A stretch of 53,877 bases of DNA from Lentisphaerota bacterium (GTDB lineage Bacteria > Verrucomicrobiota > Lentisphaeria > Victivallales > Victivallaceae): positions 1 to 53,877 of the forward strand of contig SUWG01000016.1 in the NCBI GenBank assembly GCA_015061625.1. Reading direction: 5' to 3'. Shown one piece after another: positions 3,899 to 16,851 of this stretch. The translations under genes and the position numbers were made by a program. Position 1 is the first letter of the stretch. Each line of letters begins with the position of its first letter. The notes below the pieces were generated by a model. It was not told where the DNA came from. It saw nothing but the letters and a program-made list of their open reading frames with translations, and ran no database searches.

Positions 3899-4780
3899 AT
3901 GAATAAAGTGATTTGCGGCGTTTTTCTGGCGTTATTCAGTTTCGTTGCGTTGATTGCCGGACCGACGGTCAAGGGTGTGGTGAATGCTGACGTGCTGAAT
4001 TTGCGGCTCGGTCCGGGATTGCAGCAGCCGGTGGTCGGCCGGGTCGTGGATAAAACGGAAGTGGAAATCGTGCGGGTGGTCGGTAACTGGCTGGAGATCA
4101 AAGCCCCGGCGACACTGGCGATCTATGTTTCCGAAGCGCGTATCGGCCGGGATGGAGTGCTGACCGGTGAATTGAATATGCGTACGGCGATGAGTTCCAC
4201 TGCTCCGTGTCTGGGTACGCTGCCCAAAGGTACAAAAGTTACCAAAGTCGGTGAGTCACGCAACGGCTGGGTGCGTATCGAATTGCCGGAAAATATTGAA
4301 ATAAAAGTTTATGCCGCTTCATTCCTGGTGACTTATGATCCGGCGAAATTTGATGCCGACGGTAATATTATCGGTGCCGCCCCGGCGGAAACTCCTGCTC
4401 CTGCCGCTCCGGCTGAAACTCCGGCATCTGCTCCGGCCGCTCCGGCAGAAACCCCGGCACCTGCTCCGGCCGCCCCGGCCGCTCCGGCAGAAACCCCGGC
4501 AGAAACTCCGGCCGCTCCGGCGGAAACTCCGGCACCTGCCGCGGATAAAGTTGAGTTGAGCGGTTATGTCTGCAAATGGAAATACAGCACAGCCAGAGAG
4601 TGTGATTACACGCTGCTTTCCGAACCCAACGGCTTCAATCTGGCCTTTATTTTCAGCGATGATGTTTCGCAGCTGGCCGCGCTGGAGGGCAAGAGGGTCA
4701 AAGTTACCGGCACCAATGCCGGGCGATTCGGCAATAACGGCGTGATCATCATCAAAGTTGACAGCATTGCTGAATTATAA
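3899..4780 (+). CDS. Secreted SH3b-domain protein with Pro/Ala linker
   Basis: A 293-residue protein with a signal peptide (1-20, hydrophobic core then AG). Two bacterial SH3-like domains follow (about 24-75 and 85-145; each has the NLRxGPG / LNMRT type motif). Next comes a low-complexity PAETPAPA-type linker (about 158-216) and a C-terminal domain of about 75 residues that I do not recognise. SH3b domains usually bind peptidoglycan or cell-wall peptides, so a periplasmic or cell-wall-associated role is likely. The flexible linker would let the C-terminal module reach away from the wall. The start has an AAGGAGAAA ribosome-binding site 7-10 bp upstream. The gene is transcribed alone, divergently from xerC. 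Confidence 0.8.
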   Translation: MNKVICGVFLALFSFVALIAGPTVKGVVNADVLNLRLGPGLQQPVVGRVVDKTEVEIVRVVGNWLEIKAPATLAIYVSEARIGRDGVLTGELNMRTAMSSTAPCLGTLPKGTKVTKVGESRNGWVRIELPENIEIKVYAASFLVTYDPAKFDADGNIIGAAPAETPAPAAPAETPASAPAAPAETPAPAPAAPAAPAETPAETPAAPAETPAPAADKVELSGYVCKWKYSTARECDYTLLSEPNGFNLAFIFSDDVSQLAALEGKRVKVTGTNAGRFGNNGVIIIKVDSIAEL

Positions 4781-4801: not shown

Positions 4802-4849
4802 ACCGTCAACGGGTTGAAAAAATACTGCTGACGGTGTAATAGTATATAT
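4802..4849 (+). promoter_or_regulatory. Promoter region and inverted repeat before the SPFH operon
   Basis: ACCGTCA (4802-4808) and TGACGGT (4829-4835) form a 7-bp inverted repeat that encloses a likely -35 box TTGAAA (4814-4819). Candidate -10 hexamers follow in an AT-rich run (TAATAG at 4837, TATATA at 4844). The position around the -35 box suggests an operator. It could also be a weak terminator of the SH3b gene, although no T-run follows. Confidence 0.45.
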
Positions 4850-4898: not shown

Positions 4899-6827
4899 TT
4901 GGAAAACAGAGAAGACTACAAACGTACGGATGACCGGGCGCGTCTGCTGACCAAGTTGTCAGCCATCGGCGGCGTCGGGGCATTGTTGTTGCTGATATCA
5001 GTGCTGATATTGGCGGCTAACCGCGGCGGAGACGTGCTGGGGTTGGCGGCGATTCCTTATGCTCTGGCGGTGCTGTTTGCCGGTATGTCACTGGTTTACG
5101 GCATTTTGTTCGGGGCGGTTCAGCGGGAAGATGAGGAAAAACGTCTGCTGGCCAAACGGATGGAGAGCCGCGCGCTCAATGTGGATGAAGATGTGCGTTT
5201 TACTGCCGGCAGAAGTTTTGCCAACTACACCAAATTCGCCCCGTTTGTGATTTCGGTGGCGGCGGTGGTCATCATCGGTTTGATGCTGTGGCGCAATGTG
5301 AGTATCTGGAATCTGCGTGAAGGCGTCGGCGTGACCATGGAAGGTTCACCGGTTCACACCGCATTGATCGCCGTGGTGCTGATGATGGTCAGTGCTTTGG
5401 CGGGGGCGTTCATGGTCGGTCAGTCCCGGATGCCAGGTTTCCGCTGGCTCCGTCCGGTGGGTGCATGGTTGTTGATGGGCTTTCTGACGCTCTGTGCGGC
5501 GGCGGTTTCCGCGCTTTTTTTCAGCAACAACATCGTTGAAGTCGATCCGCTGATCTCCAAGGTGTGTTTCTGGATCTTTGTGGTGCTGGGTGCTGAATTC
5601 ATCGTCAATTTTGTGATCGAATTTTACCGTCCCCGCACTCTCGGTGAGAGCCGTCCGGTCTTTGAGAGCCAGTTGCTCGCTCTTTTCACCGAGCCGGGCG
5701 GTGTGTTGCGCAATATCGCTTCTGCGCTGGACTATCAGTTCGGCTTCAAGGTTTCCGGCACCTGGATCTACGGCTTTATTGAAAGATCGTTTTTCCCGGT
5801 GTTGTTGTTGTGGGCGGTGCTGCTGTGGGGATTTTCCGCAGTTCACGAAGTGGGGCCCAACAATGTGGGTATCCGTGAACAATTCGGCCGGGCGATGACG
5901 GAAGAGATTCTGCCGCCCGGAATATATTTCACCTTGCCGTATCCCTTTGGTACGGTGCGTCAATTCAGTTGCACCGAGGTCAAAACGCTGATCATCGGTG
6001 AAACTCCGGAAAGTGCCGAGGAGCGTGCCGCTTCACCGGTGGTGTTGTGGACCAACGCTCACGGCGGTGCAAAAGAGCCGTTCCTGGTGGCCGTGCGTGA
6101 GGAAGATGGCGGCAGTGCTTCTGCCGAGAGTCAGGAAAGTGCCAGTGTCTCATTCATCAATATGGCGATCCCCATCGAATACCGCATCCGTGAAGATGGA
6201 GTTATCCAGTACGCGTACGGCAACGCTTCTCCGGAAGATGTGTTGAGAAAACTCGGCGAACAGGTCGTCGTGGAATATCTCGCCGGAGTCACCATGGAAG
6301 AATTCATGGGCGAGGGCCGCGGTCACGCTGAAAGTGTGTTGAGAGAGAGATTGCAGCTGCTGGCCGACCAGAATGAGTTGGGCGTGGAAATCATCCGTAT
6401 CGCAGTGATGGATGCCCACCCGCCGGTGGAACAGGTCGCTCCGGCTTATCAGGAGTATGTCGCTTCCATCGAGCAGAAAGATACCGAGATCCTCCGGGCT
6501 CTGGCCTATTGGAAAACGGTGGTGCTGGCCGCAGAAGCCGAAGCATTCCGCATCCGTACCGAGGCGAGAAGCCGCCGGGAAAATGCGGCAGTGGTCGCGC
6601 AGGCTGAAAGTGAACGCTTTGAACAGCAGTTGGCGGCATTCCGCACCATGCGTTCGATGTTCATGCTCAATGCCCGTATGGAAGTTTGGGAAACTGAAGG
6701 ACTTGCCGCGCGCAAATTCATCGTTCCCGCCGGTTTGAGAGATCTCGTCTACCAGATGAATTTCGAGGAAAACGAAAGATTGGATCTGGGCGATATCGAT
6801 GTGTCTGATTTTAGTGATAATCAATAA
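4899..6827 (+). CDS. Polytopic SPFH/band-7 (HflK-like) protein
   Basis: I place the start at TTG 4899, 7 bp after an AAGGAAAGG ribosome-binding site, giving 642 residues; an ATG at 4857 would add 14 residues without a site. Six predicted membrane helices fill the N-terminal half (about 22-41, 47-72, 113-132, 152-174, 186-208, 222-242). A seventh (298-314) leads straight into the SPFH domain (HEVGPNNVGIREQFGR onward), and an Ala/Glu-rich coiled-coil region follows (about 520-600). HflK/stomatin proteins normally have one N-terminal anchor, so the six extra helices are unusual. SPFH proteins oligomerise into membrane microdomain scaffolds or cages. It is the first of three consecutive SPFH genes, and the rest of the operon encodes transporters. 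Confidence 0.85.
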   Translation: MENREDYKRTDDRARLLTKLSAIGGVGALLLLISVLILAANRGGDVLGLAAIPYALAVLFAGMSLVYGILFGAVQREDEEKRLLAKRMESRALNVDEDVRFTAGRSFANYTKFAPFVISVAAVVIIGLMLWRNVSIWNLREGVGVTMEGSPVHTALIAVVLMMVSALAGAFMVGQSRMPGFRWLRPVGAWLLMGFLTLCAAAVSALFFSNNIVEVDPLISKVCFWIFVVLGAEFIVNFVIEFYRPRTLGESRPVFESQLLALFTEPGGVLRNIASALDYQFGFKVSGTWIYGFIERSFFPVLLLWAVLLWGFSAVHEVGPNNVGIREQFGRAMTEEILPPGIYFTLPYPFGTVRQFSCTEVKTLIIGETPESAEERAASPVVLWTNAHGGAKEPFLVAVREEDGGSASAESQESASVSFINMAIPIEYRIREDGVIQYAYGNASPEDVLRKLGEQVVVEYLAGVTMEEFMGEGRGHAESVLRERLQLLADQNELGVEIIRIAVMDAHPPVEQVAPAYQEYVASIEQKDTEILRALAYWKTVVLAAEAEAFRIRTEARSRRENAAVVAQAESERFEQQLAAFRTMRSMFMLNARMEVWETEGLAARKFIVPAGLRDLVYQMNFEENERLDLGDIDVSDFSDNQ

Positions 6828-6864
6828 CAAATAAAACATTATTTACTGGAGGCTGAATAAAATT

Positions 6865-7923
6865 ATGGCAAACGGGAACTTTTTCAAACATTGGCCGACA
6901 ATGTTGCTCGGTCTGATCGTGGCGTTGATCCTGCTTACGGCAGTATTTTCGTTCCAGCTCAATCAGACGGAAGTCGCAGTGGTTACAACTTTCGGCAGAC
7001 CGGAAGTCGTCGAGGAACCGGGATTGCACTTCCGCTGGCCCTATCCTTTCCAGAAGGTCTACCGTTTCGACAAACGCATCCGCTGTTATGAAGGCAGCAG
7101 CGGCCGTCTGGAAGAGACCGTGACCAAAGACGGTCACAACATCATCGTCGGTATCTATGTCAACTACCGCATCAGCGATGTGGCGTTGTTCTTCAGCAAA
7201 CTTCAGGATATTGCCGGTGCCGAGGAGGTACTCAATACCCTGATGCGCAGTGCCAAAAATGCCGCATTCGGCAAACGGGATTTCCGTCAGATCATCGTCT
7301 ATGCCGGTCAGGAAACTGAACAGGGCATCCGTGATGCCGCCGCCGGTGAGGGCGGAACCGATGGCAATGCTCCGCAGAGTGAAACCACCGATCTCAACGA
7401 GATCGCCGCTGATATCAAAGCGACGCTGGTGGCGGATACCAGAGATTTCGGTATCGAGATCATCGATGTCGGTATCAGCAGTCTCGGCGTGCCGGAAACG
7501 GTTACGGAAAAGGTCTTTGAGCGTATGATCGCAGAACGCCGCCGTTTCGTGGAGCAGAATCTTGCCCGCGGCCGCAGTGAAGCGGAAAAGATCCGGGTCG
7601 AAGCCAATTTGAATCGTGACAAACAGATCGCGGAAGCACAGGCCGAGGCTTTGAGATTGCGCGCCGAAGGTGACGCCGCCGCTGCCCAATTCTACCGTGA
7701 ATTTGCCAAAGATCCGGAACTGGCGGAATTCCTCCGCAAGATCGAAGCATTGCGTCTGATGCTCCGTGAACGCACGACGCTGATCCTCGATCCGAGTATG
7801 CCGCCGTTTGATATCCTCAGCCCCGGAACGGTGATCCCCGGTCGCGGTGCAGCTCCGGCTGCCGGTGATGCTCCGGCGGCAGATGCCCCGGCTGAAACTC
7901 CCGCCCCGGCCGCAGCAAACTGA
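6865..7923 (+). CDS. SPFH/band-7 protein, HflK-like
   Basis: A 352-residue protein with a short cytoplasmic N-terminus, one membrane helix (about 12-31) and an SPFH domain beginning NQTEVAVVTTFGRPE. A charged coiled coil (about 215-275) and an Ala/Pro-rich tail complete it. The domain order is that of HflK/HflC, which surround the FtsH protease in proteobacteria. No ftsH is present in this window, and association with FtsH here is not shown. It follows the first SPFH gene by 37 bp with its own ribosome-binding site (ACTGGAGG) and precedes the third by 12 bp. Confidence 0.88.
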   Translation: MANGNFFKHWPTMLLGLIVALILLTAVFSFQLNQTEVAVVTTFGRPEVVEEPGLHFRWPYPFQKVYRFDKRIRCYEGSSGRLEETVTKDGHNIIVGIYVNYRISDVALFFSKLQDIAGAEEVLNTLMRSAKNAAFGKRDFRQIIVYAGQETEQGIRDAAAGEGGTDGNAPQSETTDLNEIAADIKATLVADTRDFGIEIIDVGISSLGVPETVTEKVFERMIAERRRFVEQNLARGRSEAEKIRVEANLNRDKQIAEAQAEALRLRAEGDAAAAQFYREFAKDPELAEFLRKIEALRLMLRERTTLILDPSMPPFDILSPGTVIPGRGAAPAAGDAPAADAPAETPAPAAAN

Positions 7924-7935
7924 TGAGGCAAAATC

Positions 7936-9105
7936 ATGGCAGAAAATAAAAGCGTGATAACAACTAATGAATTCGACCGCAGCGGCCGTTATGACGCCGG
8001 TCTGAAGTCATTGGCTAAAAGTTTGCGGGTGGCATTTTTGCTGCTGCTGATCGGCATTATTGCCACGTTGATCTACTTTGTCAGCGGTGCCGGTTACTTT
8101 TCCGTCGAACCGCAGGAAGCGGTCATCGTGACCCGTTTCGGCCGTATCGTCGGCACTTACACTTCCGGCGGACACTGGTTTTTGCCCTATCCGGTGAATC
8201 AATTCATCCGCATCAAGACCAGCCAGCAGTTGCTGGAGATCGATTTTGCGGCGGTTGAAAGCAGTCAGACGGCGGAAAACGGTTCTTTGCAGCCCGGCCG
8301 GGACAACTATATCATCACCGGTGATGCCAATATCGTCCACAGTTCATGGACCATTGCCTACCGGGTGGATAATCCGGAAAAATATTATCTGCGCCTGCTC
8401 ACCCCGCAATTTCCCGTGCAAAACGGCCGGGTGATGCCGGATGATGAATTCACTGATGCCGACGGCATGGTCGGTACCCGCGGTCCGATCACGTTCCTGC
8501 GCAATCTTTTCCGCCAGGCGGTGATCAAGGTGACGGCGGAATCCAGGGTGAATGACATTCTCTATGCCGGTCAAAGCACTTACAGTGAAGCCGTCCGCCG
8601 GGAATTTGCCCGTCTGATCGAGGAGAGTGATTGCGGTATCGTCATCGAAAATGTCGGTCTCAACCGCATTTATCCGCCGATCAAAACCAAAGCGGCATTT
8701 GAAGAGGTGACTTCGGCGATCAACGCCAGTTCGGCAATGCGCAACGAGGCTCTGGCCTACCGGGTGGCGCAGGAAAATGAAGCCGTTTCCAGAAGTGCGG
8801 CGATCCGGGCGGAAGCCGAAGCGTATAAACAGCGTATCATCGCCCAGCTCGGCGCCCAGAGTGCTTACTTCAATAAGATCTATGAGCAGCACATTCTCAA
8901 TCCGGGGACGCTGACCATGGCTCTTTATACAGATATGCTCCGCGAAGTGGCGGCGGCGATCCAGGGAGATAAATTCCTGCTTGACGGTGCCGGCAGAGCG
9001 TTGTGGCTGAAAATCAATCCGGAACGCAGAAGATCATCATCTGACTCCGGCAACGAAGGCTCCGGTTCGACTGCCGGGCAAGGTGCGTCCCAGGAGGGCA
9101 GATAA
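7936..9105 (+). CDS. SPFH/band-7 protein, HflC-like
   Basis: A 389-residue protein with one membrane helix near 34-58, then the SPFH domain (SVEPQEAVIVTRFGRIVG), a coiled coil rich in Ala/Glu/Arg (about 255-300) and a Ser/Gly-rich tail. It is distinct in sequence from the preceding two, so the trio probably forms a hetero-oligomer rather than reflecting a recent duplication. The ATG lies 12 bp after the previous stop, and the next gene starts only 2 bp after this stop, which ties the SPFH genes to the metal ATPase in one transcript. Confidence 0.88.
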   Translation: MAENKSVITTNEFDRSGRYDAGLKSLAKSLRVAFLLLLIGIIATLIYFVSGAGYFSVEPQEAVIVTRFGRIVGTYTSGGHWFLPYPVNQFIRIKTSQQLLEIDFAAVESSQTAENGSLQPGRDNYIITGDANIVHSSWTIAYRVDNPEKYYLRLLTPQFPVQNGRVMPDDEFTDADGMVGTRGPITFLRNLFRQAVIKVTAESRVNDILYAGQSTYSEAVRREFARLIEESDCGIVIENVGLNRIYPPIKTKAAFEEVTSAINASSAMRNEALAYRVAQENEAVSRSAAIRAEAEAYKQRIIAQLGAQSAYFNKIYEQHILNPGTLTMALYTDMLREVAAAIQGDKFLLDGAGRALWLKINPERRRSSSDSGNEGSGSTAGQGASQEGR

Positions 9106-9107
9106 TC

Positions 9108-11147
9108 ATGAGCGAACATATCCATAATCATAGCGGCGATTGCTGCTGCGGTCACGATCACGGTCACAAACATGACCACGATCACTGCAACTGCGGTCAT
9201 GAACACGGTAAAGAAGACAGCACTTGCATCTGCGGTCACGATCACAAAGCCGAGGGCGGTGTCGGTCACGACCGCAGTATGGGCAGGGTTTTCTTTGCGC
9301 TGGTCGGCGGTATTCTGACTGCCAACTCATTCATTCTCAATGCATGGCTGCCGGAACAGGAGTTTGCGGCCAATATGTCCGCCCTTTTCGGTGCATTCAT
9401 CCTTGCGCTGCCGATCATCATCACGGCGGTCAAGGATCTGGTGCGCGGCAAAGTCTACATGAATGAATTGGTGGCTCTGGCGATTCTGGCGGCATTGGTC
9501 AAAGCGGATTTCCAGACTGCCGGTATCATCGCCTTTTTCCTGCTGGTCACGATCATTATTGAAACCCGTACCGCCAGCGGTGCGCAGCGTTCCATTGAGG
9601 AGTTGATCAAACTTACGCCGAATACGGCCAATCTGATCGACGAAAAAGGCAATGAGCGTGAAGTTGCCGCGCAGGATTTGAAAGTCGGTGACCGCATCCG
9701 GATCCGTCCGGGTGAAAACTTCCCGGTTGACGGCCGGATCGCTTCCGGTGAAAGTACGGTCAATCAGGCGTCGATCACCGGTGAATCTGTCCCGGTGGAA
9801 AAGGTTGCCGGGGAAGATGTTTTTGCCGGTACGCAGAACTTGACCGGTGCCGTGGAAGTCATCGTGACCAAAGTCGGCGGCGATACCACGCTGGGCAAGG
9901 TCAAAGAGATGATCATGCAAGCCGAAGCCAGCCGTACCCCGGTGGTGCGGATCATCGACCGTTATGCCGGATATTATACGCCGACGGTGCTGATGATCGC
10001 CTGGATCACCTGGTGGTTCAGCCGGGATATGAATTCCGTGATCGCATTTCTGGTGATCGCCTGTCCGTGTGCGGTGGTGCTGGCCACGCCGACGGCGGTG
10101 GTGGCGGCGGTGGCGGCGGCGGCCCGTCTGGGTATTTTTATCAAGAACATCAGCCATCTGGAATTGGCGAGCCGGATCTCCGCATTTGTATTCGATAAAA
10201 CCGGTACATTGACCGATGGATTGCTTTCCGTGGTCAAATTGCAGGGCACCGAAGGTGTCTCACCGGCGGAATTGTTGAGTTGTGCCGCGTCGGTGGAGCG
10301 TTTCAGTAACCACCCGACAGCATTGGCGATCATCAAACTGGCTGAAGAAGCCGAGTTGGAACTCGATGAAGTTACCGGATTTGCCGAGGTTCACGGCCGG
10401 GGTGTCAGCGGTACTGCCAATGGTTCGATCTGCCGGGTCGGCCGGGCCAACTGGATGCGTGAAAACGGCTTGAATGTGCCGGAGAGCGATCCGGAAGAAG
10501 CCGCCGGTATGAGTGTGGTTTACGTCAGCAAAGATGATAAATTGCTCGGCTGGATCGGTTTCCGGGATAAGATCCGTAAAGAATCCCAGGTGTTGCTCTC
10601 TGACTTGCGCCGTTTGGGCGTGCGTTACTGTGCGATGGTCACCGGTGACCGTCAGTCGGTGGCCGAAGAGGTCGCCGGACAACTCAATATCGATGAATTC
10701 AAAAGCGGCTGTCTGCCGGAAACCAAAGTTGAATTCGTGGAGAATGTCAAACGTGATCATACGGTCGCCGTGGTCGGTGACGGTGTGAATGACGCCCCGG
10801 CTCTGGCCGCCGGTGATCTGGGTATCGCTATGGGTGCGATCGGCAGTGACATCGCGATCAACAGTGCATCTGTGGCTTTGATGACCAACGATTTGCGTCG
10901 TATCGCCATGTTGATTTTCCTGGCGAAAAAATCGCAGGTGGTCATCAATCAGAATTTGGTTTTCGGTATGCTCTTTGTCTTTGGCGGTATGATCCTGTCG
11001 ATCGTCGGTCTGATGACCCCGATCTGGGCGGCGGTCATCCATGCCGGCAGTACGCTGGTGATCGTTTTCAACAGTGCGCGTCTGGTGCGTACCGGTGAGG
11101 AACTGACTTTGGCGGATAAACCTGATTCAGAAAAACAAGTGTCGTAA
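9108..11147 (+). CDS. P1B-type metal-transporting ATPase with His-rich N-terminus
   Basis: A 679-residue P-type ATPase. The first 55 residues are packed with His and Cys (HDHGHKHDHDH, CNCGHEHG), a likely metal-binding tail in place of the usual HMA fold. Core motifs: TGES (224-227), CPC in the ion-path helix (319-321), phosphorylation site DKTGT (363-367), a variant HP motif (NHPTA), the hinge GDGVNDAP, and HAGST in the last helix (645-649). CPC is shared by Cu and Zn/Cd pumps, whereas a His in this last-helix position recalls the HEGST of P1B-4 (Co/Fe/Zn) pumps. The metal therefore cannot be assigned; Zn, Co, Ni or Fe would fit the His-rich tail. It starts 2 bp after the third SPFH gene. Confidence 0.9.
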   Translation: MSEHIHNHSGDCCCGHDHGHKHDHDHCNCGHEHGKEDSTCICGHDHKAEGGVGHDRSMGRVFFALVGGILTANSFILNAWLPEQEFAANMSALFGAFILALPIIITAVKDLVRGKVYMNELVALAILAALVKADFQTAGIIAFFLLVTIIIETRTASGAQRSIEELIKLTPNTANLIDEKGNEREVAAQDLKVGDRIRIRPGENFPVDGRIASGESTVNQASITGESVPVEKVAGEDVFAGTQNLTGAVEVIVTKVGGDTTLGKVKEMIMQAEASRTPVVRIIDRYAGYYTPTVLMIAWITWWFSRDMNSVIAFLVIACPCAVVLATPTAVVAAVAAAARLGIFIKNISHLELASRISAFVFDKTGTLTDGLLSVVKLQGTEGVSPAELLSCAASVERFSNHPTALAIIKLAEEAELELDEVTGFAEVHGRGVSGTANGSICRVGRANWMRENGLNVPESDPEEAAGMSVVYVSKDDKLLGWIGFRDKIRKESQVLLSDLRRLGVRYCAMVTGDRQSVAEEVAGQLNIDEFKSGCLPETKVEFVENVKRDHTVAVVGDGVNDAPALAAGDLGIAMGAIGSDIAINSASVALMTNDLRRIAMLIFLAKKSQVVINQNLVFGMLFVFGGMILSIVGLMTPIWAAVIHAGSTLVIVFNSARLVRTGEELTLADKPDSEKQVS

Positions 11148-11159
11148 GAGGTATTTTTC

Positions 11160-12356
11160 ATGGAACGCAATTATGAACCGGTGGTACAGGCAGTCGGCCT
11201 GACCAAAATGTTCCGGGATTTCTGGCACCGCCCCAAAGCACGGGCGGTGAACGGTATCGATTTTGAGATCAAGCCCGGTGAAGTGGTCGGTCTGCTCGGC
11301 CCCAACGGTTCGGGCAAATCCACTACGGTAAAAATGCTTTTGGGGCTGCTTTATCCCACGGGCGGCAAAATCACGGTTTTCGGCAAATCGCCGCGGGCGG
11401 TGGAAACGAAAAAAGAGATCGGTTATCTGCCGGAAGAGTCTTATCTGTATAAGTTTCTGACTGCGGAAGAGACGTTGAACTTTTTCGGTTCACTTTTCAA
11501 CATTTCCGCCGAAGACCGCAAACGCCGCATCGATCAGTTGTTGGAAATGGTCGGTCTTTCCCATGCCCGTTACCGCCGGGTCGGGGAATTTTCCAAAGGT
11601 ATGGCGCGGCGTATCGGTTTGGCGCAGGCGATGATCAATGACCCGGCATTTCTGATTCTGGATGAACCGACCAGCGGTCTTGACCCGTTGGGCTGCCGGG
11701 AGGTGAAAGATCTGATCCTGGCGTTGAAAAAACGTGGAAAAACGGTGTTGATCACCAGCCATTTATTGAGCGATGTGGAAGATATCTGCGACCGGGTGAT
11801 CATTCTTTACGGCGGTCAGGTGCGGGCGGAAGGTGCGTTGGATAAACTGCTTACTGTCAGCGATCAGACCCGTATCCTCACTCCGCAGCTGCCCAAAGCG
11901 GTGATGGATAAACTTCTGGAATTGCTCCGGGCCAATCTGGATGGCGAGGAATTCAAAATCGATCATCCCCGCCGCACTCTGGAAGAATTCTTCCTCGATG
12001 TCATCGCCCAGGCCCGCCGTGAGAGCGTGGAAACTGCCGGTGTGGCCGGCAGCGGCGGCATTGCGGAATATCTTGCCGGTGAGGATGAAGATGATGAGAA
12101 GAGTGCTTTGCTCAATACCCTGATGAAAGAACCGGTAACTCCGGAATTCAAAAAGAGTGAGGCCGTTGAGCAGGATGTGGCGGAAAAAGCTGTGGAAGTT
12201 TCTGCGGATGACAGGATCGCTTCCGCTCTTAAAGAGGTCACCGCCAAAGTGGAAAAAGAGAATACTCCGGCAGAGGAGAGTGGCAAAAAGGCGGAAAATA
12301 TGCGCCGTGCCAACAGTAAACTGGATTCTCTGCTCGGCGACAAATCAGGTGAATGA
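11160..12356 (+). CDS. ABC transporter ATP-binding protein
   Basis: A 398-residue ATPase. Walker A GPNGSGKST (47-55), a variant signature FSKGM (144-148) in place of LSGGQ, Walker B FLILDEP (164-170) and a typical H-loop (TSHLLSD) support an ABC-2-type export system. The last 100 or so residues form an acidic, low-complexity extension rich in Glu, Ala and Lys, absent from most family members. It powers the permease encoded next, whose ATG overlaps this stop (ATGA). The substrate is unknown. Confidence 0.92.
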   Translation: MERNYEPVVQAVGLTKMFRDFWHRPKARAVNGIDFEIKPGEVVGLLGPNGSGKSTTVKMLLGLLYPTGGKITVFGKSPRAVETKKEIGYLPEESYLYKFLTAEETLNFFGSLFNISAEDRKRRIDQLLEMVGLSHARYRRVGEFSKGMARRIGLAQAMINDPAFLILDEPTSGLDPLGCREVKDLILALKKRGKTVLITSHLLSDVEDICDRVIILYGGQVRAEGALDKLLTVSDQTRILTPQLPKAVMDKLLELLRANLDGEEFKIDHPRRTLEEFFLDVIAQARRESVETAGVAGSGGIAEYLAGEDEDDEKSALLNTLMKEPVTPEFKKSEAVEQDVAEKAVEVSADDRIASALKEVTAKVEKENTPAEESGKKAENMRRANSKLDSLLGDKSGE

Positions 12357-13819
12357 TGAAAGCGTTTCGTGCCATCGTAGCTTTGACTTTCCGCAATGCG
12401 GTGCGGTCGCATATCTTTCAGCTGTTGCTGGTGTTGCTGCTGCTCTGTGTGACTTTGATCCCGTTTTCGATATCGACCGGCAAGATCGATGATCTGATCC
12501 GGGTATCATTGCTTTACAGTTTGTGGTCAGTCAGTATCGTTTTGACCCTTTCCTCGTTGTGGTTGGGGTGTTATGTCATGTCGCATGATATCGACAGTTA
12601 CCAGATCCACATGGTGGTTTCCAAGCCGATCCCCCGCTGGTCGATCTGGCTGGGCAAGTGGGTCGGCATAAATCTGATCAATGTGGTGCTGCTGCTGTTG
12701 GCCGGTCTGGTGGTCTACGGTATAGTCATGTTGCGTTACAGCGAGGCGGGAGAAGCCGAGCGTTTCGCCGACCGTGAAGTGGCCCGGCAGAATGCGGAAG
12801 CGGAAAGAGCGCGTATCCGTTCACAGATATTGGTCGGCCGCCGGGTATTCATGCCGGAATTGCCCGACCCGGAACGGGTGGCGGAAGCCGCAATCAATCA
12901 GCGTCTTCAGGAATTGGCCCAGGAGGGCCGCCAATTCAGCGATACCGAGATCGCCGCATTGCGTGAGGAAGTCAAACGGGACATCAGCACCCGGCCGATC
13001 GAGGTACTGCCTGCGCAGTTGAATGAAGCGGGTATGCCGCAGACGACTGCAACGGCTTACACCTGGACTTTCCGGGATCTGCCGACCGACTTGAATGAAG
13101 CGCAGTTGATTTTGCGTTTCCGGCCTTATCTGGATAAGATCGCTTCTGAAGATCAGCGTGAAAGCCGTATGTGGTGGGCGGTATTGGATCCGGCAAGAGT
13201 GGAAAGTGCCGGTGAAAGCGGTTCATTTGTGGCCGTTACGCCTAATCCGGGATCTTATTTTACCGGAGAGTTTCACGAGCATTATCTGCCTTCCGGGGTG
13301 ATCGCTCCGGATGGCACGGTGAAAATTCAGGTGTTGAATACCGATACACAGGGCGGCAAACACTATTATCAGATTGCTGACGGCCCGCAGTTGCTCATCC
13401 CGGTATGCAGTTTTGAGGAGAACTATTTGCGGGCGATGCTGGTGATGACGATCCAGTTGCTGCTGCTTTCCGGTCTGGCGTGTGCATTCGGCGGTTGTCT
13501 GACGATGCCGACGGCGATATTCATGGTGGTAAGTTACTTGCTTTTCGGTTCATTATCCATGATTTTGACCGACACATCATTTTTCATTTCCACGGCGTGG
13601 GATAAGATCGGCAATTTTCTGGCCAGATGTTTGCTGACGGTGGTCATACCGTTGCAGAATTTTGATGTGACCGATATGCTTTCGGGCGGAGAATTGATCG
13701 AATTTTCGTTCATTGGAAAACTCTTTTTTGAATATTTCCTGTTGCGCGGTGTGCCGTTGTTCCTGTTGGGTATCTGGCTCTACCGGCGGCGTGAAATGGG
13801 ATCGGCGGTGAGAAAATGA
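12353..13819 (+). CDS. ABC-2-type transporter permease
   Basis: A 488-residue membrane protein. There are three N-terminal helices (about 17-38, 46-74, 97-124), then a large hydrophilic domain (about 125-360), probably extracytoplasmic, and a C-terminal block of about four helices (about 362-480). The N-terminal region (ALTFRNAVRS... then QLLLVLLLL) is typical of NatB/ABC-2 permeases that work with a separate ATPase. The start overlaps the ATPase stop by 4 bp, and the stop overlaps the next gene's start by 4 bp, so all three are translationally coupled. Confidence 0.85.
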   Translation: MMKAFRAIVALTFRNAVRSHIFQLLLVLLLLCVTLIPFSISTGKIDDLIRVSLLYSLWSVSIVLTLSSLWLGCYVMSHDIDSYQIHMVVSKPIPRWSIWLGKWVGINLINVVLLLLAGLVVYGIVMLRYSEAGEAERFADREVARQNAEAERARIRSQILVGRRVFMPELPDPERVAEAAINQRLQELAQEGRQFSDTEIAALREEVKRDISTRPIEVLPAQLNEAGMPQTTATAYTWTFRDLPTDLNEAQLILRFRPYLDKIASEDQRESRMWWAVLDPARVESAGESGSFVAVTPNPGSYFTGEFHEHYLPSGVIAPDGTVKIQVLNTDTQGGKHYYQIADGPQLLIPVCSFEENYLRAMLVMTIQLLLLSGLACAFGGCLTMPTAIFMVVSYLLFGSLSMILTDTSFFISTAWDKIGNFLARCLLTVVIPLQNFDVTDMLSGGELIEFSFIGKLFFEYFLLRGVPLFLLGIWLYRRREMGSAVRK

Positions 13820-15420
13820 ATAGATTCCGCAATATAACTTTGATTCTGGTGCTGATAATGATCACCCTCGGCGCACTTTTCGGGGTGCGTCAGATGCAGT
13901 ATTCACTTGACCGCACTATTGAAGAGGAACGTCTGCGCTTCACCGGCACAGTGACCGATGCGCCCCCGGCGATGGTTTTTACCACGGTGGCTCTGGGCAG
14001 TTTCCGCGGATTGCTGGCGGATATCCTCTGGCTGCGTTCCGAATCGCTCAAAGGACAGAAAAACTACTTTGAAATGGTTCAGCTTGCCCGCTGGATCACC
14101 GATTTGCAGCCCAACTATTCCGGCGGCACGGTCTATCTGGCGTGGAATCTGGCGTACAATATTTCCGTCACCAGTTCCGATTGGGAAGACCGCTGGTACT
14201 GGGTCAATGAAGGTATCAAACTCATCCGGGATAAGGCGATGGTCTACAATCCGGATGACCCGATGCTCTACCGGGAATTGTCATGGATCTATCTGCATAA
14301 ACTCGGCAATCTGATGGATGATGCCCATTTGTATTACAAAAATCAGATGGCGACCCAGATGACCAACGTCCTCGGCCGCAGTTTGTATGATTTGAAACCG
14401 CTGGCAGATGCTCCGGTGGGTAAAGAGGAATTCATGCGGCTCTATCCGGAAGATCACCCGCTCTGGCAGGCGGTCAGAGAGGCCGGTTACAAAGATTATG
14501 ACCAGTTGGCGGCGTTGTTCCGCGAACCGGTGCAGGTCGCTTTGCCGGAAAATCTCAAGATCCGCAGTGAATATTATCAGGCTCTGGATGCCCACTTCCG
14601 TGCGGAATTGCTCCGGGAACGCTTCAAACTTGATCCCAAACGGATGGTCGCTTTGGATGAAAAGTACGGCCGCATGGATTGGCGCGTGCCGGAATCACAG
14701 GCGATCTACTGGGCGGAGATCGGCGTGGAAAAAAGTGCCGCCAACGGCCGGGTGGATGTGAATTGTATGCGTATCGTCACCCATGGTTTGCAGGCGGCAT
14801 TCCGCAGCGGCCGGGTGTTGATGATCGACAATGATGCCAGAACTTTCCAGGCGGTTCCCAACTTGAATCTGGCAGATTCCGCTTATGCGGCATTTGAGGC
14901 GGCGGAAGAGGAGTTTGTCGCTTCCGGTGCCGGGGAAAGTTTCCGCAGTGCCAAAATCAACTATCTCAAAGATGCCATTCCTCTGATCTACATTTACGGC
15001 AACCGGTCAAAGGCACAGGAATTTTTCGAGAAACTGCAGGAGATCGACGGGCCGCAAAGACAGCGGACTCTGGATGAATTCGTGCGCAACCACTTTATCG
15101 AAGATGTGCGTGATGCCGATGTGGAAAAAGCGACATCGGTGGTCAGCGGACTTATTCAGCGTGCGTTGTGGGAGTTGCTGTTGGGCAACCGGGAAGTGGC
15201 GGTTTACAACGAAAGCATGGCAAGAAGCATCCATCAGTTGTATACGCAGAGAAATCGTGACGTGCGCCGCAATCAGTTGCCGGAATACGATCAAATCAAA
15301 TATTATGTGATCAACAATATGCTTCGCAACCTGCCTGAAGCTGCCCAGCGGCGTCTGATCGAAGAGATCCGGGCCCAGCAGGCAGAGGCTGCCGGCAGAG
15401 AAGAGTCCGGAGACAACTGA
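13816..15420 (+). CDS. Membrane-anchored helical-repeat protein of unknown function
   Basis: A 534-residue protein with one N-terminal membrane helix (about 6-24) and a long soluble domain. I do not recognise a named domain. The region about 55-170 (LADILWLRSESLKGQ, then WITDLQPNYSGG, then AWNLAYNIS) has the spacing of aromatic and small residues seen in TPR-like helical repeats. From memory, similar proteins sit beside ABC-2 exporters in planctomycetes, which I cannot check here. Its 4-bp overlap with the permease and position before a strong terminator make it the last gene of the SPFH-transporter operon. A role as an accessory subunit facing the periplasm is an inference. Confidence 0.75.
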   Translation: MNRFRNITLILVLIMITLGALFGVRQMQYSLDRTIEEERLRFTGTVTDAPPAMVFTTVALGSFRGLLADILWLRSESLKGQKNYFEMVQLARWITDLQPNYSGGTVYLAWNLAYNISVTSSDWEDRWYWVNEGIKLIRDKAMVYNPDDPMLYRELSWIYLHKLGNLMDDAHLYYKNQMATQMTNVLGRSLYDLKPLADAPVGKEEFMRLYPEDHPLWQAVREAGYKDYDQLAALFREPVQVALPENLKIRSEYYQALDAHFRAELLRERFKLDPKRMVALDEKYGRMDWRVPESQAIYWAEIGVEKSAANGRVDVNCMRIVTHGLQAAFRSGRVLMIDNDARTFQAVPNLNLADSAYAAFEAAEEEFVASGAGESFRSAKINYLKDAIPLIYIYGNRSKAQEFFEKLQEIDGPQRQRTLDEFVRNHFIEDVRDADVEKATSVVSGLIQRALWELLLGNREVAVYNESMARSIHQLYTQRNRDVRRNQLPEYDQIKYYVINNMLRNLPEAAQRRLIEEIRAQQAEAAGREESGDN

Positions 15421-15459
15421 AATGTGATTTATCATTAAATCGGTTCGTTGTCTTGTCAA

Positions 15460-15507
15460 CTGCCGGAGCAAAGGAGCTGAAGCGTTGCTCCGGCAGAAAA
15501 GTTCTTT
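15460..15507 (+). terminator. Intrinsic terminator of the SPFH-transporter operon
   Basis: A perfect 12-bp stem (CTGCCGGAGCAA at 15460-15471 with its complement at 15485-15496) and a 13-nt loop, followed by AAAAGTTCTTTT. Confidence 0.8.
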
Positions 15508-15520
15508 TCAGCAAATAAGT

Positions 15521-15570: not shown

Positions 15571-16851
15571 GTGGAGGAGTATTTATTTATCGGCGCACTT
15601 GACGGTGCGGCAGGCGAATGGTTGATCCTGTGCGTGAGTTTGTTTTGCGCATTTTTCATTTCACATATATGTTCACTGATGGAAGCGGCGGTGTTGAGTG
15701 TGACACCGAGCCAGTTGGCCGAGTTGCGGCAGAAGCATCCGGCAACCGGTGATCTGGCGCAGAATCTCAAACGTGATATCGACAAGCCGTTAGCGGTTAT
15801 TCTGATTTTGAATACCGCCGCCCACACGATCGGTGCGGCGTTGGCCGGTGCCAGTTTTTCCGAACTGGGCTTCGGCAGATATATGGGCATTTTTTCGCTG
15901 GTGTTTACGCTGGTGATGGTGCAATATACCGAATTACTGCCGAAAACATTGGGGGTACGCTTCAATGTTTCGATCTTGCGCATAGTTGTCAGACCGTTGT
16001 ATCTGGCAACGATCCTGCTGTCACCGCTGATCAAACTGACGAAATTTATCAACCGTCCGTTTGAGGGGCGCGCTCCGGTTCGGCCGACTCCGGCGGAAGA
16101 GATCTCTGCATTGGCCGCCATGGCGCGCAGTACGCAAGCGATCTCCAGCCGTCAGGAGCGGATAATCCGCATGGTTCCGTCGCTGTCGGAAAAGAGTGCG
16201 GCGGAAGTGATGATCGCTTTGGAAGATGTCTCATTTCTGGATACCGATATGTCGCTGGATGATGCGATCAACGCCACCGGAGATGATTTTCACACCCGTT
16301 ATCCGCTGTGCATCGACGGCGATCGCAGCCGGGTGCCGGGATATGTGAATATCAAAGAGATCATTCTGGCAGTGCAGCATGGCAAGGGCGATATGAAAGT
16401 ATCGGATATTATGCGGCCGATCGCCTTTGCCGATTCGGATGACAGTGCATCGAAACTGCTGGAAATGTTCGCCGCCCAGCATTGTCACATGACGATCGTG
16501 CGGGATGTGGCTTCCGGTAAAACTTGCGGTCTGGTCACTCTGGAAGATATCGTGGAAGAGTTGATCGGTGATCTGGATGATGAATTTGATCCGCTGCCCC
16601 GCACATTTTATGCTCCGGGCGACAATCTCTGGGTGGTTGGCGGCGGAGTGCCGCTGACCCAGCTGGCCAGAGATACGCAGTTGGATCTGCCCCGCCGGAC
16701 GGAATCGGTTTCAGCGTGGTTCGGCAGGGAACTGGGCAAGAATGTCAAGGTCGGCGATACGCTGACATGGAAAAATGCCGTATTGTTTGTCCGCAAAGTG
16801 CGCCGCCGTCAGGCGTGGGAATTTCATGTGAAACGGCGCAAACTGCTGTGA
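15571..16851 (+). CDS. CNNM/CorC-type transporter (DUF21, CBS pair, CorC_HlyC)
   Basis: A 426-residue protein starting at GTG (GGGGA ribosome-binding site 5 bp upstream). The N-terminal DUF21 region has about four membrane helices (12-40, 68-90, 98-118, 132-155). A CBS pair (about 205-325, including GLVTLEDIVEELIGDLDDE) and a C-terminal CorC_HlyC domain (about 340-426) follow. Such proteins, often misnamed haemolysins, are linked to Mg2+ or Co2+ efflux and tolerance. The gene stands between a terminator and rpe and is probably transcribed separately from the SPFH operon. Confidence 0.9.
   Translation: MEEYLFIGALDGAAGEWLILCVSLFCAFFISHICSLMEAAVLSVTPSQLAELRQKHPATGDLAQNLKRDIDKPLAVILILNTAAHTIGAALAGASFSELGFGRYMGIFSLVFTLVMVQYTELLPKTLGVRFNVSILRIVVRPLYLATILLSPLIKLTKFINRPFEGRAPVRPTPAEEISALAAMARSTQAISSRQERIIRMVPSLSEKSAAEVMIALEDVSFLDTDMSLDDAINATGDDFHTRYPLCIDGDRSRVPGYVNIKEIILAVQHGKGDMKVSDIMRPIAFADSDDSASKLLEMFAAQHCHMTIVRDVASGKTCGLVTLEDIVEELIGDLDDEFDPLPRTFYAPGDNLWVVGGGVPLTQLARDTQLDLPRRTESVSAWFGRELGKNVKVGDTLTWKNAVLFVRKVRRRQAWEFHVKRRKLL

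Follow-up and report, generated by a model that had tools for sequence, protein, structure and literature searches.

The stretch of DNA analysed here (the window) comprises 53,877 nucleotides from a gut-dwelling Lentisphaerota bacterium (assembly GCA_015061625.1, contig SUWG01000016.1), whose genome consists of 2.7 Mb in 44 contigs. It carries seven co-directional open reading frames (ORFs) on the + strand at 4899-15420, which encode three SPFH proteins (S1, S2 and S3), a P1B-type ATPase (P1B), an ABC ATPase (ABC), a permease (PERM) and a helical protein (HEL), in this order. Pfam assigned Band_7/SPFH to genes 1-3, E1-E2 ATPase and hydrolase domains to gene 4, and ABC_tran to gene 5. An earlier sequence-only reading, made by a model without database searches, had described seven uninterrupted genes, three of them for SPFH proteins, and both points stand. 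The gaps of 37, 12, 2 and 12 bp that it gave were also correct, followed by two 4-bp overlaps (ABC/PERM and PERM/HEL) and not by three. Further analysis revealed that the locus is composed of two ancient modules joined together, S1-S2-S3-P1B (module 1) and ABC-PERM-HEL (module 2). The gene content, the gene order, its deep conservation, a single clade of P1B pumps and the coupled inheritance of the genes were directly observed. Coordinates are listed in Table 1; genomes, fetched stretches and families are labelled G, L and f, respectively.

Table 1. Genes and sequence elements of the seven-gene locus, with the basis of each assignment
Feature	Coordinates	Strand	Basis
S1: SPFH-1, HflK-like, 642 aa	4899..6827	+	TTG start; Band_7 E 1.3e-9; hflK model 76.1 bits
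S2: HflC	6865..7923	+	TIGR01932 154.6 bits, cut-off 134.4; solved HflC 7vhp_G E 1.2e-30
S3: SPFH-3, HflK-like	7936..9105	+	Band_7 E 6.4e-17; hflK model 112.5 bits; 7vhq_E E 8.1e-19
P1B-type ATPase	9108..11147	+	TIGR01525 534.4 bits, cut-off 346.25; Pfam; motifs; clade
ABC ATPase, 398 aa	11160..12356	+	ABC_tran E 6.8e-35
PERM: ABC-2 permease	12353..13819	+	weak ABC2_membrane_2; hydropathy
HEL: anchored TPR-like helical protein	13816..15420	+	hydrophobic segment 6-24; weak TPR matches among relatives; conserved core
Putative operator dyad (ACCGTCA / TGACGGT)	4802..4835	+	around promoter-like TTGAAA, 5' of gene 1
Perfect 12-bp hairpin, possible terminator	15460..15496	+	3' of gene 7

The same seven genes occur in the same order in all five other Lentisphaeria contigs retrieved with the permease (metagenome-assembled genomes), and S1, ABC and HEL lie at one locus in 42 of the 47 genomes of the family of the window, so the arrangement is not due to chance. 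We surveyed 288 genomes of the phylum, 98 of which belong to the class of the window, at thresholds of E <= 1e-3 for HEL, 1e-8 for S1, 1e-80 for ABC and 1e-15 for PERM. Matches to HEL, S1, ABC and PERM were found in 180, 143, 198 and 136 genomes of the phylum, and in 96, 95, 93 and 90 genomes of the class, respectively. Adjacency was counted from the printed places of S1, ABC and HEL only, with the same strand required. By this count, the three genes share one locus in 53 of the 98 class genomes. HEL is separated from an S1-ABC pair in 21, S1 is missing or separated from an ABC-HEL pair in 11, and no two of the genes are adjacent in 13, several of which have fragmented assemblies. Genes with unprinted or unentered places (HEL in G261 and G215, ABC in G100, S1 in G055) were scored as apart or not adjacent, G138 and G278 of family f1 probably appear split owing to contig ends, and a second copy in G208 with all seven genes (L138) was missed by the count.

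Outside the class, places were printed for 62 genomes: all three genes lie together in three of them (G038, G004 and G256), S1 with ABC in one and ABC with HEL in 28, and 30 show none of these arrangements. In G004 the pump is placed ahead of S1. By the printed places, ABC adjoins neither S1 nor HEL in G218 (f13), G182 (f12) and G086 (f10). None of S1, ABC, PERM and HEL was matched at the survey thresholds in G040 and G052 (f3), though their relatives have them, which makes loss of the whole system possible in these two genomes. The sequence-only reading had staked its case on the order being kept beyond close relatives; it is kept in distant families and outside the class.

Among the three SPFH proteins, S2 exceeds the NCBIfam equivalog cut-off for HflC, and S1 and S3 fall under the HflK cut-off of 159.4 bits and are HflK-like only. 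A profile search of the PDB placed S1 nearest to solved HflK (7vhq/7vhp), S3 also nearest to HflK, and S2 nearest to HflC. Hydropathy analysis of S1 revealed six hydrophobic segments ahead of a final one that runs into the SPFH domain, compared to five such segments in two plasmid relatives. The three proteins are the only Band_7 matches above cut-off in the genome, with one further match at 22.5 bits. FtsH, which had been taken as absent, is encoded on another contig (G000:C4:5507-6073, 229 bits). In the SPFH tree, the labels were taken from the best profile match and the clades are thus partly expected; among the rows listed, the 70 S1 rows group as a single clade (support 0.911), and S3 belongs to a group of 52 that includes one foreign fragment.

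The window pump has a His/Cys-rich N-terminus, a CPC motif in transmembrane segment 6 (TM6), a His in TM8 and the motif HAGST, and Pfam matched no HMA domain in it. It is a P1B ATPase, as had been noted from the letters; the His-rich stretch, previously assigned to the tail, is N-terminal (residues 4-54). An Asp in TM8 is the hallmark of P1B-2 pumps (ZntA), and SPC in TM6 with an HEGST-like TM8 is that of P1B-4 pumps (CoaT/CtpD). The window pump has neither, with His in place of the Asp and CPC and HAGST in place of the P1B-4 motifs. A canonical metal-export pump of the ZntA or CopA kind was rejected as the sole reading, because no HMA domain was matched and the TM8 residues are unlike those of ZntA-like and CopA-like references.

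A tree of 66 SPFH-linked pump rows (five from plasmids) and 13 other pumps, HmtA itself not being among the rows, placed all 66 in one clade with a support of 0.979; one G226 gene that lies in two fetched stretches (L060 and L104) is counted twice among the 66. All 66 retain the motifs DKTGT, HP and GDGxND, whereas the TM8 His is present in 63 and CPC in 53. All of the 53 CPC rows also carry the TM8 His, and this pair is found in none of the 13 other pumps. CPC is replaced by VPA in three pumps, by IPC, LPC or MPC in six, and by CPV or CPG in four. The VPA pumps, all from family f9 (L110, L112 and L114), lose both TM6 cysteines with intact catalytic motifs, and the classical soft-metal site is therefore not universal in the clade. 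Such replacements next to invariant catalytic motifs would suit a clade whose substrate is not a soft transition metal, or one with a partly regulatory role; however, retention of CPC in most members, the His-rich N-termini of several SPFH-linked pumps and the reported transport of Zn and Cu by HmtA (PMC8456098) speak against this possibility, which we regard as very unlikely. As a separate observation, L060 (1314-9570, G226) holds a second SPFH set near a pump with a ZntA-like TM8, upstream of ABC-PERM-HEL; the HflC of this set groups with canonical HflC in the SPFH tree.

Module 1 was followed in 100 fetched stretches, picked for taxonomic spread and not randomly. S2, S3 and P1B adjoin S1 on the same strand at 54 of the 57 untruncated S1 loci, corresponding to 51 of 54 genomes; two additional S1 loci cut by contig ends are outside the 57. 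The exceptions are L106 and L117, without the pump, and L107, where S1 stands alone and the remainder of the set of that genome lies in L055. In the plasmid collection, the ten records with the pump (E <= 1e-100) are the same ten as those with S1 (E <= 1e-20). Gene order was taken from the annotation of four of these ten records, the plasmids of Burkholderia ubonensis, Klebsiella aerogenes, Paraburkholderia sprentiae and Rhizobium tumorigenes, all of which have the four gene types in the same order, annotated as HflK, HflC (or SPFH), SPFH (or HflK) and P-type ATPase. On other plasmids, three places with canonical hflC or hflK-hflC were inspected, and none has a P1B gene beside it. Two fetched stretches, L142 and L144, have the SPFH-P1B cassette on plasmids typed as conjugative, and it may thus be mobile between bacteria.

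These data also bear on an alternative explanation, in which the trio is the HflKC of this lineage and carries out ordinary quality control with the FtsH encoded on another contig. The transporters would then be its clients, or neighbors that are merely transcribed together with it. It would fit that S2 exceeds the HflC cut-off and is inseparable from canonical HflC in the tree, and that the genome has FtsH and no other Band_7 protein above cut-off. In E. coli, ftsH is likewise not adjacent to hflKC. However, the partner that accompanies the trio across phyla is a single P1B clade and not a random set of transporters, the three canonical plasmid places have no P1B beside them, and S1 is polytopic with a clade of its own; we consider the quality-control explanation unlikely. 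Compared to the HflK-HflC-FtsH complex of E. coli (PDB 7vhp, 7wi3), which likewise combines HflC with HflK, the window differs in its three SPFH genes, the polytopic S1, the adjoining P1B gene and the location of FtsH elsewhere in the genome.

The closest known system is the hmtA cluster of Pseudomonas aeruginosa (PA2439-PA2435), which has genes for an HflK family protein, HflC, an HflC family protein, (PA2436) and a P1B ATPase in the same order as the window (PMC4542158). By contrast, the accounts of the cluster that we drew on describe no ABC-permease-helical extension. As the gene types and their order match, module 1 has a known counterpart, the likeness being one of gene types and order and not of the HmtA sequence. 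The import direction of HmtA reportedly rests on Lewinson 2009, as relayed by other papers. On the basis of overexpression data, HmtA is regarded as importing Zn and Cu (PMC4542158, PMC8456098), and a review asks for confirmation (PMC10393844). Under zinc starvation, in a znuA mutant, PA2439 (HflK family), PA2438 (HflC), PA2437 (HflC family) and PA2435 (HmtA) are up 5.6- to 14.4-fold (PMC4542158 Table 2), so that the earlier statement that no functional description was known no longer holds. Proteins of the cluster also increase on zinc depletion, significantly for some only (PMC11761036), and binding of Zur to the promoter of PA2439 was observed in vitro (PMC8531726). In a 2026 study, which covered nine P. 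aeruginosa SPFH proteins, it was reported that three of them (PaFlo5-7, PA14) form an operon (PMC13086221), which is most likely the one of the SPFH trio of the hmtA cluster; the main text of that study mentions neither “HmtA” nor “ATPase”. The finding is broader than the sequence-only reading had it, and half of it, module 1, was already represented by a known cluster.

Two further systems combine some of these elements. The mycobacterial PacL1-CtpC efflux platform has a scaffold and a P1B pump from one operon in one membrane patch (PMC9374683). However, PacL1 is a DUF1490 protein and not an SPFH protein, and the PacL1-CtpC foci are independent of flotillin (PMC9374683); no DUF1490 scaffold was matched in the seven window proteins at E <= 0.01. 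SPFH-NfeD operons (Hinderhofer 2009, PMC2636767) likewise join SPFH genes to a conserved operon partner, but Pfam found no NfeD match among the seven window proteins, and the main text of that paper contains neither “P-type” nor “ATPase” (PMC2636767).

Module 2 combines an ABC ATPase with an ABC-2 permease, as an ABC-2 exporter should, the permease being recognized through its relatives. PERM itself scores 20.7 bits against ABC2_membrane_2, under the cut-off of 27.2, and 13 of its 15 relatives match this family. Hydropathy analysis revealed a large stretch (about residues 127-360) between its hydrophobic segments, and a PDB sequence search with PERM gave nothing below E 0.4. The best NCBIfam scores of the ABC ATPase are those of drrA and GldA, both under cut-off, and the GldF model matches 4 of the 15 PERM relatives. 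These matches recall ABC-2 exporters of the GldA/GldF kind, from which the window differs in an ATPase that scores under the cut-offs and in a TPR-like anchored protein as the partner. HEL starts with one N-terminal hydrophobic segment; the helical part that follows is TPR-like, and about residues 48-180 form a conserved core. Pfam gave no match to HEL itself, and of its 14 relatives at most three have TPR matches, which are weak; a PDB sequence search gave weak matches only, among them a TPR match with E 0.0021 using profile A6. Since ABC, PERM and HEL lie together in many genomes outside the class, module 2 is also old. In several genomes outside the class (stretches L120, L133-L136, L123 and L087), the gene immediately upstream of S1 has a weak match to the PERM profile (26-49 bits), which may reflect another type of association with ABC transporters.

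The relation between the two modules is best seen in families f9, f11 and f14 (15 genomes). Each of these genomes has a single ABC match, which lies less than 9 kb from S1 on the same strand, and HEL lies elsewhere than S1 and ABC in 14 of the 15 (the place in G261 was not printed). Four stretches fetched whole (L110, L111, L112 and L114) have the order S1-S2-S3-P1B-ABC. The ORFs listed behind the split ABC in L110, L111, L112, L118 and L119 include none with more than one hydrophobic segment (L114 ends early). No ABC ATPase was found in the 12 scanned stretches with PERM/HEL of f8-f11, f13 and f14, and 47 of 48 control stretches known to have ABC scored positive in the same scan. In G083, the split is seen within a single contig of 5.7 Mb, with ABC and S1 at 904620 and 910192, and PERM and HEL at 5250085 and 5251600. 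Family f10, to which G208 with its second seven-gene copy belongs, was left out of this argument, having two ABC matches per genome. As the only ABC orthologue is kept by S1 while PERM-HEL lie elsewhere, the gene order points to one transporter with its ATPase in the SPFH-P1B operon, and so suggests a functional tie between the modules. Moreover, the S1-ABC junction recurs in f1, f2, f4 and f8 and, outside the class, in G004, G038 and G256, as well as in G129 with ~2 kb between pump and ABC.

The arms of the dyad upstream of S1 are kept in 5 of 6 loci and absent in L008. Paired changes from ACCGTC..GACGGT to ACCGCC..GGCGGT occur in L007 and L009. At up to 3 mismatches the pattern has one match in the genome, namely itself, as does the backward control; a genome-wide regulon search with the S1 upstream element likewise matched only itself. 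The dyad may be an operator-like element. Promoter-like sites on both strands number 13, versus 7.8 (standard deviation (sd) 2.5) in shuffles, and three on the + strand lie inside the unit (8286, 12513 and 12698), so that internal promoters may exist. Terminator-like sites number 15 versus 13.9 (sd 4.0) expected, none of them persuasive inside the unit. The region of the terminal hairpin (15440-15520) has a z of -1.89, with 12 of 200 shuffles folding equally well, and no T-run lies directly behind the hairpin, nor does the terminator scan give a site there. The single terminator proposed after gene 7 is therefore plausible but not proven. The unit is flanked by genes for an SH3-domain protein upstream (3899-4780) and a CNNM/CorC-type protein downstream (15571-16851), both of which are kept in the five nearest relatives.

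Based on these findings, we propose, as the most likely explanation, a seven-gene inner-membrane transport unit in which an SPFH enclosure around a transition-metal pump cooperates with an exporter. Like HflK/C, the three HflK/HflC-type proteins, one of them polytopic, would build a ring or cage at the periplasmic face of the membrane. This cage would enclose and stabilize the P1B ATPase, either in place of FtsH or in addition to it. Module 2 would form an exporter of the ABC-2 type, in which a permease with a large loop is joined by a TPR-like protein anchored in the membrane; this exporter would work in or next to the membrane patch defined by the SPFH proteins. The metal is most likely Zn or Cu, and it might be imported if HmtA is a fair guide, or exported according to ordinary P1B logic. 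The sequence-only reading had likewise placed metal and ABC export in one assembly organized by SPFH proteins. The gene order and the split ABC support a link between the SPFH genes and the two transporters, but the word export for the metal does not sit well with HmtA, the only characterized counterpart in gene order, being described as an importer. We judge the case for the proposed unit to be finely balanced.

Several points weigh against it. Module 1 stands without ABC-PERM-HEL on plasmids, and G088, G134, G190 and G243 have S1 without a HEL match (E <= 1e-3), their stretches showing S2 and P1B; HEL is found without S1, too. S2 groups with canonical HflC, and the S3 profile matches the third SPFH gene in only 1 of 5 plasmids (35 bits). 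CPC is lost in 13 of the 66 pumps, and the TM8 His alone is not special, as 3 of the 13 other pumps have it. For zinc control of the Zur type the picture is mixed: the genome has one FUR-family match, and the best window match to a P. aeruginosa Zur site has 5 mismatches, a chance level, as 109 of 2000 random 250-bp window pieces do as well or better; in the relatives, the same comparison gives 3 mismatches for L006 (0 of 2000 pieces), 5 for L007 and L009, 7 for L005 and 8 for L008. The hmtA mRNA is reported as unchanged, without a fall upon zinc addition (PMC8531726), a review names hmtA as an exception to Zur binding (PMC10393844), and the loss of SPFH genes from P. aeruginosa had no strong effect in the conditions used for the mutants (PMC13086221).

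The separate occurrence of module 1 on plasmids and in the four genomes named above, together with the 11 of 98 class genomes that have ABC with HEL and S1 elsewhere or absent, would also fit two independent modules, namely a metal transporter of the HmtA type and an envelope exporter unrelated to it, which in Lentisphaeria would be placed in one operon for expression only. However, the junction recurs in distant families and outside the class, and in f9, f11 and f14 the only ABC orthologue stays by S1 with PERM-HEL elsewhere, although drift could still explain a shared ABC. We regard independence of the modules as somewhat unlikely. The boldest form of the proposed transport unit is a single machine, in which a three-subunit cage of the HflK/HflC type houses the P1B pump and docks the ABC-2 exporter with its periplasmic TPR partner, the ABC ATPase being common to both modules; we consider this distinctly unlikely. 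No published SPFH-P1B-ABC unit is among the matches listed in the open-licence literature.

As to what purpose SPFH cages serve, the association of the trio with one P1B clade across phyla and plasmids offers a concrete, testable client. In this light, the SPFH genes of the P. aeruginosa hmtA cluster, for which little explanation has been given, are likely part of an old and widespread system. In Lentisphaeria, this system is extended by an exporter that includes an unnamed family of TPR-like proteins (HEL). If the single machine did exist, SPFH cages would be compartments for transporters, beyond their role as protease chambers.

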